The notes beneath the pieces are model-generated. The model was given only the letters and a program-made list of their open reading frames with translations. It did not search any database and had not been told where the DNA came from. DNA of 48,455 nucleotides from Actinomycetota bacterium (GTDB lineage Bacteria > Actinomycetota > Acidimicrobiia > Acidimicrobiales > Ilumatobacteraceae). The translations under genes were made by a program, and so were the position numbers. Positions 7,283-10,714 of the stretch are shown here, in pieces. The stretch spans positions 1-48,455 of the forward strand of contig JAUXQB010000140.1 in NCBI GenBank assembly GCA_030685215.1, in the 5' to 3' direction. Each line of letters opens with the position of its first letter. The first letter of the stretch is position 1.

Positions 7283-7660
7283 GTGAGTGCAACAGTCGGC
7301 CTCAAGGGCACAGCGAGCATGGTGGTCACCGAGGCCGACACAGCCGTGGCCATGGGCTCGGGCTCGGTGCTGGTGCTGGCCACCCCGCGGGTGGTCGCGC
7401 TGTGCGAACAGGCCACATGCGCTGCCCTCGCCGGCCAGCTCGCCGAGGGTTCCACCACGGTGGGCATGCGAGTGCAACTCGACCATCTGCAGCCCACCCC
7501 GGTGGGTGGCCAGGTGGAGGCCGAAGCGGTCCTCGAGAAAATCGAGGGACGAAGGCTCACGTTCATGGTTTCGGCGTCCGATACCAAAGGGCTGGTGGCT
7601 GCAGGAAAGGTCACCCGCGTTCTGGTGGAGGTCGACCGATTCATGGACAAGACACAGTGA
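7283..7660 (+). CDS. FlK-like hotdog-fold acyl-CoA thioesterase
   Basis: A 125-residue single hotdog-domain protein resembling fluoroacetyl-CoA thioesterase FlK. The FlK triad is Thr42/Glu50/His76; here Thr34 (ATP), Glu42 (LCE) and His68 (LDH) have the same spacing, 8 then 26 residues, so hydrolysis of an acyl-CoA is likely. The natural substrate is unknown, since most FlK relatives are not fluoroacetate-specific. The start is a GTG preceded by a TAGCGT box at 7269. Its stop overlaps the next gene start as GTGA, so the two are translationally coupled, an odd pairing of a cytoplasmic thioesterase with a lipoprotein. Confidence 0.87.
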   Translation: MSATVGLKGTASMVVTEADTAVAMGSGSVLVLATPRVVALCEQATCAALAGQLAEGSTTVGMRVQLDHLQPTPVGGQVEAEAVLEKIEGRRLTFMVSASDTKGLVAAGKVTRVLVEVDRFMDKTQ

Positions 7661-7950
7661 AGCCACTCATCACCACGCTCCTCGCCGCCGCTGCTGCGTT
7701 CGCGTTGTCGGGCTGCCCCGCGAAGGACGCCAAGGACGGCGCGGCCAACATCCAGCGCTCCACCGGCGTGAACTGCACCACCGAACGGCGGATGCTGCAG
7801 ACGGCCATCGAGTCGTACAGCATCCTCGAGAACAAGACGCCCGTCACCGAAGCGGAGATGGTGCCCGACTACCTCCACGCCGACTCGCCGTACTTCGACA
7901 TCGACGCCACCGGCCAGATCGTCCCCTCCCCCGGCAGCACCTGCAACTGA
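7657..7950 (+). CDS. Small lipoprotein with a type IV pilin-like C-terminal region
   Basis: A 97-residue exported protein. Residues 1-20 form a lipoprotein signal with lipobox LSGC (Cys20 lipidated). The mature part has two more cysteines, Cys40 and Cys96, bracketing a segment of the form CxxERRxLxTAIExY...TPVTEAEMVPDYL...YFDID..GQIVP. This looks like the pseudopilin head domains of actinobacterial type II secretion/type IV pili, but the N-terminal pilin helix is replaced by a lipoprotein signal. Pilin similarity is by eye only. The start is GTG overlapping the thioesterase stop. No pilus assembly genes are in the window. Confidence 0.78.
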   Translation: MKPLITTLLAAAAAFALSGCPAKDAKDGAANIQRSTGVNCTTERRMLQTAIESYSILENKTPVTEAEMVPDYLHADSPYFDIDATGQIVPSPGSTCN

Positions 7951-7976: not shown

Positions 7977-8025
7977 GAGCTTTGGCGTTCAGGCGCCCGA
8001 TGCGGGCCTCTCAGCGCCAATGCTG
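7977..8025. repeat. Structured repeat, copy 1 (overlaps the 3' end of the AbiEi/DUF559-type gene)
   Basis: This 49-bp element matches copy 2 (9024-9072) at about 39 positions by eye, in the same orientation. It contains an inner hairpin GCCCG-ATG-CGGGC (7995-8007) and an outer stem TTGGCG/CGCCAA (7982-7987 with 8015-8020). The gene stop codon (7989-7991) lies inside it. It lies between two convergent genes and might help end transcription, but no T-run follows. Confidence 0.7.
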
Positions 8026-8942
8026 CGACGCCAGAGGCGATAGAGGGCTGCGAGTTCGTTCACCACCTCGGCCAGGTCGGTTGCGATCGCGTCGTCCGTC
8101 ACCCGTTCCACGGCAGCACCGGTGAGCCGGACCTTCCGGTCCCGCGCTTTGTCGTAGGCGACGGATGCAGCGCTCGAGTGCCATGTGTGGTGGTCGACCT
8201 CGATGTAGAACCGAGCCACAGGGTCTCCCAAGTCGGGATGCACGACTCCGCCGTCGAGCAGACGAACTGGTGGCTGACGAACGAAGGCGTCCATGCCGTG
8301 GCGGTGCAGTGCGTGCAGAAGCCTGACCTCGTCATCGGAGTCGGCCGCGGGTCCATTGCCCCGCGCCCCCATGACTCTCTGGGCCCGGGCGCCACCAGGG
8401 CGGCCCGGCACGGCCAGGCGAGCAACCGTGGCGCGCAGCTCGTCGGCAGTCGCCAGCTTCAGGTCCAGGATCTGCTCGCCGAGCGAGATGAGCGTCAGGT
8501 CATCGACATGGCGGGCCTGATCGAAGAACGTGCGTTGCGGAGTGGTGACGCGTATGCCGTCGTTTCGAACGACGATGTCCGCGGGGACGAGCGAATCTGT
8601 GCGGTGCACGATGACGCCGCGGCCGAGCGGTTTGGTCACCCGGCCTGTCGTGACGTGGATGCGCGGCGAGTTGCACTTCCGCAGTCCCGTCAGCTTTCCG
8701 GCGCTGTAGCACGAGATGGCCAGCGAGAGATCCGCCGCACAGACCGCGGCACACCGTGCCTCGAAGTCGAGGGGCGAGGACACCAAGTGGTACACACCCT
8801 CGAAGAGCTCCTCGAGCACTCCTGCGCTCAGCAACATCCGACGGTGCTTCTCTGACAGGCCGAGTGCGCGAAGCTCACTCGAGGCGGCAATTCCGTGGTG
8901 GTCTCGGAACCAGCGGGCGATGAGCTGCGTGAATGCAGGCAT
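7989..8942 (-). CDS. AbiEi antitoxin-like/DUF559-type protein
   Basis: A 317-residue protein. Residues 1-60 resemble the AbiEi-type winged-helix domain often found alone in Actinobacteria (RWFRDHHGIAASSELRALGLSEKHRRMLLSAGVLEELFEGVYHL). The C-terminal part has the DUF559/Vsr-like endonuclease-fold pattern: YIEVDHHTWH near residue 248, then YDKARDRKVRLTGAAVERVTDD. The family is often annotated as an orphan type IV antitoxin; a nuclease role is inferred from fold similarity only. The ATG at 8942 has a GGGGGAG ribosome-binding site 4 nt upstream. The gene looks less GC-rich than its neighbours and is flanked by two similar structured repeats, hinting at transfer as a unit. No AbiEii toxin gene is adjacent. 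Confidence 0.8.
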   Translation of the reverse strand: MPAFTQLIARWFRDHHGIAASSELRALGLSEKHRRMLLSAGVLEELFEGVYHLVSSPLDFEARCAAVCAADLSLAISCYSAGKLTGLRKCNSPRIHVTTGRVTKPLGRGVIVHRTDSLVPADIVVRNDGIRVTTPQRTFFDQARHVDDLTLISLGEQILDLKLATADELRATVARLAVPGRPGGARAQRVMGARGNGPAADSDDEVRLLHALHRHGMDAFVRQPPVRLLDGGVVHPDLGDPVARFYIEVDHHTWHSSAASVAYDKARDRKVRLTGAAVERVTDDAIATDLAEVVNELAALYRLWRRSIGAERPASGA

Positions 8943-9021
8943 GGGACTCCCCCAGAGGACAACAGGCTGTTGGGGGAAGTCACCGGCAACATACCGCCGG
9001 CCCGCGCTGAGCAACCCAATT

Positions 9022-9074
9022 GCGAGCTTTGGGTGTGGGGCGCCCAATGTGGGCCTCCCAGCGCCAAAGCTCGC
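9022..9074. repeat. Structured repeat, copy 2 (between the IlvG-like gene and the AbiEi/DUF559-type gene)
   Basis: This copy has a perfect 11-bp outer inverted repeat (GCGAGCTTTGG at 9022-9032 with CCAAAGCTCGC at 9064-9074) and an inner hairpin GCCCA-ATG-TGGGC (9042-9054). Compared with copy 1, the closing inner base pair changes from G-C to A-T on both sides, a compensatory change that supports real base pairing. It lies 14 bases past the IlvG-like stop codon and could act as its 3' hairpin. Confidence 0.75.
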
Positions 9075-9088
9075 CGAGAGGTGCCGGG

Positions 9089-10714
9089 TCAGCCGAGGTT
9101 GCTGGTTCTGGGGTAGACGTCGGAGGGGTCGGTGAGGACGTTCACCAGGTAGGGAACGCCGCTGGCGAAGGCGCGGTCGAGCGCGGGGCCGATGTCGGCG
9201 GGCGAGGCGACGGTCTCGCCGGCGCCGCCGAGTGCCTTCACCACCTGGTCGTACTGCAGACCGGGCTGCAGGTCGCAGGCCATGTCCCAGCCGTAGATGG
9301 CCTGCATCGGGTGCTTCTCCAGCCCCCACATGCCGTTGTTGCCGACCACCATCACCACCGGCAGGTCGTGGCGCACCATCGTGTCGACGTCCATCATGCT
9401 GAAGCCGGCGGCACCGTCGCCGAGCAGCAGCACGATCTGGCTGCTCGGGCGAACCGTGCGAGCGGCGATGGCATACCCAGGCCCGTTGCCGAGGCACCCG
9501 TACGGGCCGGTGTCGAGCCAGCACCCGGGTTCGAACACCTCGACGAACTTGCCGGCGTAGCTGGCGAAGTCGCCACCGTCGCAGATGACCACCGCGTCGC
9601 GGGCCATCCGGCGGCCGAGCTCGCCGTAGATGCGACTGGGCTTGATCGGCGAACTGTCGTCGGCGAGCAGCTCCTCGTCGGCGGCGCGTCCCCGCTCCTC
9701 CGCGGCACGCAGCTCCGCGACCCACTCGTCGTGATCGACACGAGGCCCGCTGTGATCGGCCAGCGCGCGGAGCACGAAGTTGCTGTCGCCGGCGACCGTC
9801 GGCACGTCGATGTGCTGCGCGCGCTGCTCTTCGCTGTCGACCACGTGGGCCACCTGCGCGTTGCCGAACTGACCGAAACCGAGGCGGAAGTCGAGCGGCG
9901 TGCCGAGCACGACGACGAGATCGGCTCGGGCCTTCAGCAGCCCACGCGTGCGCAGGAACGCGAGCTCGTGGTCGGCGGGCAGCGTGCCGCGACCCAACCC
10001 GTTGAAGAAGCACGGCACCCGCAGGTGCTCGGCTGCCGCGCGCAACGCATCCCAGGCGCCGTCCCAGTAGACGTCGCTACCGACGATGAACGCGGGCCGC
10101 TCGGCGTTCGCGACGAGGTCGGCCAGCCGAGCGACGGCGTCGGGATCCGGGTCGGCACCGCGGACGCCATCCGCGTCGACGGTGGGGAACTCGCCCGCGG
10201 AGGCGGCGAAGAACACGTCGAGCGGCACGTCGAGGAACGTGGGGCCGCGGTGCGGTGTGAGCGCGAGCTGCGCGGCCGCGTGCACCATCGCGCCGGCCTG
10301 CGACGAGTCCTTCACCGTGGCGGCGCTCTTCGTGATGGACTGCATCACGGGCACGTGGTCGAACTCCTGCAGCGAGCCACTACCCCACCGCGCTTCCGGC
10401 GCACGACCCCCGAGCACCACCACCGGCGACCCGTTGAAGAACGCCGACGTGGTGGCCGACACGCCGTTGGTGATGCCGGGGCCTGCGGTCAACGCGGCGA
10501 ACCCGGGCTTGCGGGTGAGCTTGGCGTAGGCCTCCGCGGCGAAGGTGGCGGTCTGCTCGTGGCGGGTGTCGACGACCTTCATCCCCTGGTCGCGGGCTGC
10601 GTCGTACAGCGGCCAGATGTGCCCACCGTTGAGGGTGAACATGGTGTCGGTGCCGAACGCCATCAGCGCTGCCACTGCTTGCTGTCCTGCATGGCCTTCG
10701 ATGCGAGTGATCAT
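9089..10714 (-). CDS. Thiamine-diphosphate-dependent enzyme, IlvG-like (acetolactate synthase family)
   Basis: A 541-residue enzyme with the three domains of the acetolactate synthase/2-hydroxyacyl-CoA lyase family. The ThDP-activating glutamate is Glu53 (DTRHEQTA). The ThDP/Mg motif, GDGAAGF running to VVGNN, lies near residues 431-459. From memory the sequence closely follows M. tuberculosis IlvG (Rv1820), including GGHIWPLYD-like, LTAGPGITNG and GLEKHPM stretches and a YPRTSNL ending. That protein is annotated as an acetolactate synthase, but a carboligase or lyase acting on acyl-CoA is equally possible. It follows an SDR gene by 22 bases on the same strand and is probably in its operon. 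Confidence 0.88.
   Translation of the reverse strand: MITRIEGHAGQQAVAALMAFGTDTMFTLNGGHIWPLYDAARDQGMKVVDTRHEQTATFAAEAYAKLTRKPGFAALTAGPGITNGVSATTSAFFNGSPVVVLGGRAPEARWGSGSLQEFDHVPVMQSITKSAATVKDSSQAGAMVHAAAQLALTPHRGPTFLDVPLDVFFAASAGEFPTVDADGVRGADPDPDAVARLADLVANAERPAFIVGSDVYWDGAWDALRAAAEHLRVPCFFNGLGRGTLPADHELAFLRTRGLLKARADLVVVLGTPLDFRLGFGQFGNAQVAHVVDSEEQRAQHIDVPTVAGDSNFVLRALADHSGPRVDHDEWVAELRAAEERGRAADEELLADDSSPIKPSRIYGELGRRMARDAVVICDGGDFASYAGKFVEVFEPGCWLDTGPYGCLGNGPGYAIAARTVRPSSQIVLLLGDGAAGFSMMDVDTMVRHDLPVVMVVGNNGMWGLEKHPMQAIYGWDMACDLQPGLQYDQVVKALGGAGETVASPADIGPALDRAFASGVPYLVNVLTDPSDVYPRTSNLG

Follow-up and report, generated by a model that had tools for sequence, protein, structure and literature searches.

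A stand-alone AbiEi-Vsr gene and its dispersed palindrome suggest that a class of gene-plus-repeat elements in actinobacteria has been overlooked

An AbiEi-Vsr gene that stands alone in the window (the whole 48,455-nt stretch of Ilumatobacteraceae DNA analysed here) lies between two copies of a palindromic repeat, and its gene clade and that repeat go together in related genomes. Gene and repeat are coupled, palindromes are specific to gene clades, copies are dispersed between genes with two-sided changes in their arms, and relatives lack the unit at the corresponding junction. We put at roughly 60% the probability that the locus is a single-gene element, selfish or domesticated, whose AbiEi-Vsr protein is paired with a dispersed palindrome of its own, much as RAYT proteins are with REP/REPIN sequences; the protein itself is unrelated to RAYTs.

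Results

A gene whose stop codon lies inside a repeat

The locus comprises the following features.

7977..9074, no strand assigned: whole repeat-gene-repeat unit, absent at the same junction in related genomes
7978..8024, minus strand: palindromic repeat, copy at the gene 3' end, holding the stop and last codons (R1 42.5 bits, E 7e-12)
9025..9071, minus strand: palindromic repeat, copy upstream of the gene, ending 83 nt before the start codon (R1 35.6 bits, E 3e-9)
7989..8942, minus strand: AbiEi-Vsr fusion gene, standing alone, 317 aa (open reading frame, PADLOC AbiEi profile, AlphaFold model, fold matches)
8358..8942, minus strand: AbiEi-type part, residues 1-195, winged helix and C-terminal domain (VIA-align to 6y8q and 1zel)
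8019..8348, minus strand: Vsr/EDxHD-type nuclease domain, residues 199-308 (fold matches; invariant residues in 21 homologues)
7657..7950, plus strand: left neighbour, small putative lipoprotein, a host gene (codon-model open reading frame; no Pfam match; conserved neighbour in relatives)
9089..10714, minus strand: right neighbour, thiamine-pyrophosphate (TPP) enzyme, a host gene (Pfam TPP_enzyme N/M/C; orthologues 80-87% identical in the genus)

Inspection of the two 47-nt copies reveals agreement at 41 of 49 aligned positions (84%), close to the figure of about 80 percent given in a first-pass annotation of this DNA, which had also described hairpins that covary inside an outer stem. These are present: the inner hairpin reads GCCCG-ATG-CGGGC in one copy and GCCCA-ATG-TGGGC in the other, a compensatory change from G-C to A-T, and the folding of both copies beats that of shuffled sequences (z of -3.0, and of -5.7 for the upstream copy at 9025-9071). 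The same annotation had the copies bracketing one gene. A single gene of 317 aa does lie between them, but the left copy overlaps it by 36 nt, such that the stop and final codons fall inside the repeat. The gene was rightly described as less GC-rich than its surroundings: its GC content is 66.6%, whereas stretches of equal length from the window average 70.3% (sd 1.7) and fall below the gene's value in only 0.8% of cases. No Rfam family matches the palindromic repeat.

An AbiEi fold joined to a Vsr-type nuclease

The AlphaFold model of the 317-aa protein is confident (mean pLDDT 91.8), and AbiEi and Vsr-type domains together cover the whole of it. Residues 1-195 align in VIA-align with the S. 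agalactiae AbiEi antitoxin (6y8q, Z 13.8) and with Rv2827c (1zel, Z 9.6), while residues 199-308 take a Vsr-type fold with Z of 10-13 to 3r3p, 3hrl, 1cw0 and 1vsr (13.1 for the homing endonuclease I-Bth0305I, 3r3p; 12.2 for 3hrl; 11.2 for Vsr, 1cw0). Across 21 homologues E205, D237, E248, D250, H255 and RDR267-269 are invariant, and the acidic and histidine residues among them are candidates for the E, D, ExD and H residues of catalytic type in Vsr/EDxHD nucleases. On the predicted structure, the window gene is an AbiEi-antitoxin fold joined to a Vsr/EDxHD-type nuclease.

Profile searches are in keeping with one half of the AbiEi/DUF559 label that the gene had first been given. The AbiEi profile of PADLOC matches at 8e-18, in agreement with the fold, whereas the Pfam DUF559 profile is only sub-threshold (E 0.22). 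Among nuclease profiles the closest, PF18741 MTES_1575, likewise stays sub-threshold at E 0.015; an MTES_1575-type profile is present in 21 of 21 family members scanned and DUF559 in 13. A Pfam scan of the partner proteins recovered AbiEi and a Vsr-type nuclease and found no Y1/HUH (IS200-like) transposase domain, and Pfam searches of both neighbours found no AbiEii (DUF1814 nucleotidyltransferase) toxin gene beside the AbiEi-Vsr gene. With no such toxin gene adjacent, the name of the AbiEi profile is all that speaks for the "defence-type" character initially proposed. The PF18741 profile also occurs in very long open frames (L144-L154, most of them about 1350-1850 aa), which have a separate architecture and presumably correspond to the helicase-type proteins of PMC3710099.

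A dispersed, structured repeat family

A covariance model, R1, was built from 38 copies of 45-47 nt. It places about 11 sites in the genome of the window (G000), two of them in the window and nearly all intergenic, where a near-exact or exact search with the consensus finds only four; in the relatives, too, covariance-model searching brought further copies to light, as the first-pass annotation had anticipated. In the draft assemblies of the one genus from which all counts of R1, and of the R2 repeat described below, derive, the exact R1 pattern has 2, 6, 8, 22, 25 and 39 sites in the six genomes where the gene clade of the window is present, compared with one site in G014 and none in eight further genomes without that clade. 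The reversed pattern, used as a control, has zero sites in the same genus genomes. Among the R1 matches listed, which include both strands and so number about twice the sites, the six gene-bearing genomes have 22, 53, 72, 88, 113 and at least 149, and the nine other genomes of the genus have 44 (G005), 22 (G014) and 0-2 (the rest). Copy numbers are highest in G007 and G010.

By a home-made gene finder, on which the intergenic assignment rests, 42 of 46 copies are intergenic; of the remaining four, three overlap a partner gene at its end. Convergent gaps hold copies in 12 of 23 independent cases, against 18% of gaps expected, and 0 of the 23 independent gaps is divergent. For the single repeat at C262, the only close orthologue is in G002 and has a different neighbour gene there. 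Contig C21 ends in or just past a copy (L004 1501-1535, G000:C21:9216-9250), and the palindromes may therefore break metagenome assemblies.

Pairing in the R1 alignment extends to 78.6% of cells, compared with 71.0% (sd 1.0) after shuffling, and none of 500 shuffles reaches as high. When the arms are slid against each other, pairing in R1 is at most 42%, and at most 44% over the slid structures of R1 and R2. Two-sided changes occur at 13 of 22 R1 pairs; the outer pairs are nearly fixed, and the inner pairs are freely variable yet largely complementary. Inner arms that vary while remaining paired point, from sequence comparison, to a structural constraint on the palindrome. Hairpin-templated mutation, as opposed to selection, could be what restores its symmetry.

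Each gene clade has its own palindrome

R1 flags both sides of all six window-clade genes (6/6), which are 52-60% identical to the window gene. The first-pass annotation had named conservation of the gene at this locus without the repeats as a case that would speak against it, and no window-clade gene lacking the repeats was found. At about 80 other AbiEi/DUF559 loci, same-genome paralogues included, R1 gives only weak matches, in L063 and L085; a contig scan with a narrower alignment of homologues yielded 15 loci. A second clade (L095, L096, L102 and L088), with proteins 66-75% identical to one another, is bracketed instead by R2, a 43-nt palindrome GTTTGAAG...CTTCAAAC or a close variant of it, unrelated to R1. 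The R2 covariance model matches both sides of these four genes only. Exact R2 sites number 20 in G003 (home of L096), 7 in G010 (L095), 2 in G014 (L102) and 14 in G009, with none in eleven others, and the only two exact copies in G014 are those bracketing L102. The R2 alignment has 88.1% of cells paired, compared with 80.8% (sd 1.0) for shuffles, none of 500 being as high. At L088, whose protein is diverged, the arms read GTTTGGAC...GTCCAAAC and are altered on both sides.

Paralogues within one genome carry different palindromes; that is to say, repeat type tracks gene clade and not genome. A repeat family tied to DUF559 genes, one of the possibilities first raised for this locus, is thus well supported, in a broader form than proposed, each gene subfamily having its own palindrome. 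Over all gene pairs, which are not independent, similarity of repeats and similarity of proteins are positively but modestly correlated (Spearman 0.32), because the repeats diverge fast. R1 is present without a detected partner gene in G005 (74% complete) and G014 (98% complete), and G009 holds R2 repeats without a detected R2-clade partner; persistence of the repeats may therefore not need the gene. These gene-less repeats are possibly relics, or the gene may be missing from the assembly.

A further candidate pattern, GGGCGCGA...TCGCGCCC, was dropped, since its counts of 0-6 separate gene-bearing genomes poorly and include likely chance matches in G+C-rich sequence. The flanks of L054, L057, L060, L061 and L063 hold tandem arrays of a short unit, for example CCATCCGAGTCCCA, beside a longer palindrome; these arrays surround another gene clade of the family and differ in repeat architecture.

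Empty junctions in relatives

The gap between the TPP-enzyme and lipoprotein genes measures 1138 nt in the window, compared with 16 nt in G012, 4 in G007, 11 in G002 and 40 in G001, and neither gene nor repeat is present at this junction in those four genomes. The single leftover repeat predicted for such empty sites is thus found in none of them. In G007 the window-clade gene lies about 4.6 kb from the TPP gene, between its repeats, and in G012 it lies on another contig, again between its repeats. These closed junctions and displaced genes fit the mobile or exchangeable cassette first suggested for this locus; movement itself we infer from them. In G003, G009 and G010 the window-clade gene is near the TPP gene, with other sequence intervening. 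The gene thus keeps the same neighbourhood in four of six genomes (G000, G003, G009 and G010) and is therefore often inherited vertically, such that both vertical inheritance and relocation seem, from gene order, to belong to the history of the clade. Because the junction sequences have diverged, no target-site duplication of the kind that accompanies insertion sequences or MITEs is definable at the empty junctions. Just past the TPP gene in G005 (L138), where the junction is otherwise empty, a short stretch of AAGTTGGTGGGGTGAGGGCTACTTG looks like a reduced repeat copy and is too degenerate to count.

Flanking repeats and stop codons across the wider family

AbiEi/DUF559 proteins occur in 46 of 61 relatives, often several per genome. 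Upstream and downstream flanks match above the 99th percentile of 75 control open reading frames in 67 of 88 related genes, and above the 99th percentile of mismatched flank pairs in 61 of 88; about 1% of controls have such matching flank repeats. The matches are both direct and inverted, each copy being itself palindromic and its orientation ill-defined. Phylum-wide, 14 of 40 genes exceed the 99th percentile of mismatched pairs, a count used in preference to the 19 of 40 from a looser test because the matches at L175, L176, L182 and L184 resemble coding-sequence composition. About 30% of the related genes and 65% of the phylum-wide genes have no clear flanking pair. Four genomes of one genus with 5-6 Mb (G097, G132, G153 and G205) hold 2-8 family genes each (L174-L181), several with flanking repeats of their own, for example L178 and L181.

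A strong palindrome lies near the stop codon in 59 of 130 genes (45%), compared with 25 of 327 controls (8%), and the stop codon falls inside the palindrome in 18 of 130 genes compared with 2 of 327 controls (p 7e-9). In the window clade this holds for all six genes, in identical register for five of them: the stop ends 10-11 nt short of the repeat's distal end, and in the sixth gene it is shifted by 12 nt, which keeps the frame. All four genes of the R2 clade likewise end within the downstream repeat, the stop being the TGA of GTTTGAAG in L095 and L102, at the equivalent place in L096 and inside the repeat in L088. With its stop codon fixed inside the downstream repeat, the gene has a repeat that is part of the gene unit and not a mere neighbour. 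An upstream copy accompanies each of the ten genes of the two clades examined closely.

Discussion

Likeness to known systems

The REP/REPIN-RAYT systems (PMC3116915) share several traits with the arrangement described here: dispersed extragenic palindromes that form hairpins and also lie beside the partner gene, a separate palindrome for each partner gene, and indications that gene and repeat have long evolved together. REP-type features found here are multi-copy extragenic palindromes that flank their partner and co-occur with it, the exceptions being G005, G014 and G009. In contrast, the partner is an AbiEi-Vsr fusion in which no Y1/HUH transposase domain was found, and the partner's stop codon lies in fixed register within the downstream repeat. 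The GTAG/CGTC end tag of REP sequences (PMC3733652) is also absent, the arms beginning AAGTYGGCG, AGCTTTGGCG or GTTTGAAG. Because the partner is not a Y1 transposase, the elements fall outside what defines REP/REPIN-RAYT.

AbiE type IV toxin-antitoxin systems (6y8q, 1zel; PMC7319586) provide the second comparison, since the window protein contains the whole AbiEi fold. The S. agalactiae AbiEi antitoxin binds a pair of 23-bp inverted repeats with 3 bp between them (PMC7319586), and known AbiEi proteins bind paired inverted repeats of similar size beside the gene, with which the palindrome geometry here appears compatible. Here, in contrast to AbiE, there is no adjacent toxin gene, there is an extra nuclease domain, and repeats lie on both sides and at many other sites. 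The third comparison is with Vsr/EDxHD nucleases of the same fold, such as I-Bth0305I, which forms a dimer on a nearly 60-bp target (PMC3943268), and VsrA, a DUF559 Vsr-like nuclease (PMC12907096); these contrast with the window protein, whose nuclease is fused to an AbiEi module and bracketed by dispersed palindromes. The window gene is not in an intron, and we do not attribute homing to it.

Alternative explanations

The main rival is that the palindromes are operators, bound by the AbiEi winged helix for autoregulation, with the other copies serving as regulon sites or decoys and nothing moving. The promoters of AbiEi and Rv2827c do contain paired 23-bp inverted repeats to which these proteins bind (PMC7319586), the geometry here is similar (arms of 20-22, centre of 3), and the upstream copies are where an operator would lie. 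This reading struggles with a second copy at the gene 3' end that supplies the stop codon, with a preference for convergent gaps, where promoters are unexpected, to the exclusion of divergent ones among the 23 independent gaps, and with tens of copies per genome whose inner arms vary freely while staying largely paired. Taken together, these three features make operators alone unlikely. Rather less probable is that the repeats are REP-like palindromes spread by an unlinked enzyme, RAYT or another transposase, with the gene as cargo exchanged by recombination. Direct repeats around a gene would allow its excision and exchange, and some genomes do have repeats and no detected gene; yet the palindrome follows gene clade and not genome, same-genome paralogues differ in their palindromes, and other genes are not bracketed in this way.

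Very improbable, in our judgement, is that stable hairpins enriched between convergent genes act simply as bidirectional transcription terminators or mRNA-stability elements that surround these genes by chance. Both the hairpins and their placement would suit such a role, but the outer arms are specific to gene clades and nearly absent from most genomes without the clade, and the excess of strong palindromes near the stop codon (45% versus 8% of 327 controls) is not what chance placement predicts.

A proposed mechanism

For the single-gene element that we favour, the site geometry of AbiEi and the dimer of I-Bth0305I resemble what is seen here, and for this reason we propose a dimer that reads and cuts the palindrome. 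The protein dimer would read the conserved outer arms through its AbiEi winged helices, its predicted target being a pair of half-sites, each about 20-22 bp long, with a 3-nt centre between them. The Vsr/EDxHD-type domain might then nick or cut the palindrome, perhaps extruded as a hairpin or cruciform. Repair of the break would copy the palindrome, and on occasion the entire repeat-gene-repeat unit, to other places between genes.

Significance

It seems to us an evenly balanced proposition that stand-alone AbiEi-Vsr genes across actinobacteria, which currently carry the label of orphan type IV antitoxins, constitute a separate class of gene-palindrome element, in which a nuclease derived from a toxin-antitoxin antitoxin propagates a private palindrome without a transposase, in dozens of co-diverged pairs. 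The class is possibly new, if the protein acts on its repeats: no description of AbiEi/DUF559 genes tied to palindromic repeats was found in open-access full text, a body of literature that lies apart from most preprints and subscription papers. As a rule, AbiEi/DUF559 proteins are annotated as orphan antitoxins or as nucleases whose function is unknown, and a palindrome belonging to each protein would give the whole family a testable substrate. A name alone does not justify counting these genes among defence or toxin-antitoxin systems. The pairing of gene and palindrome would further offer a second, independent origin of REP-like repeats, and many natural protein-site pairs in which to study how recognition changes.
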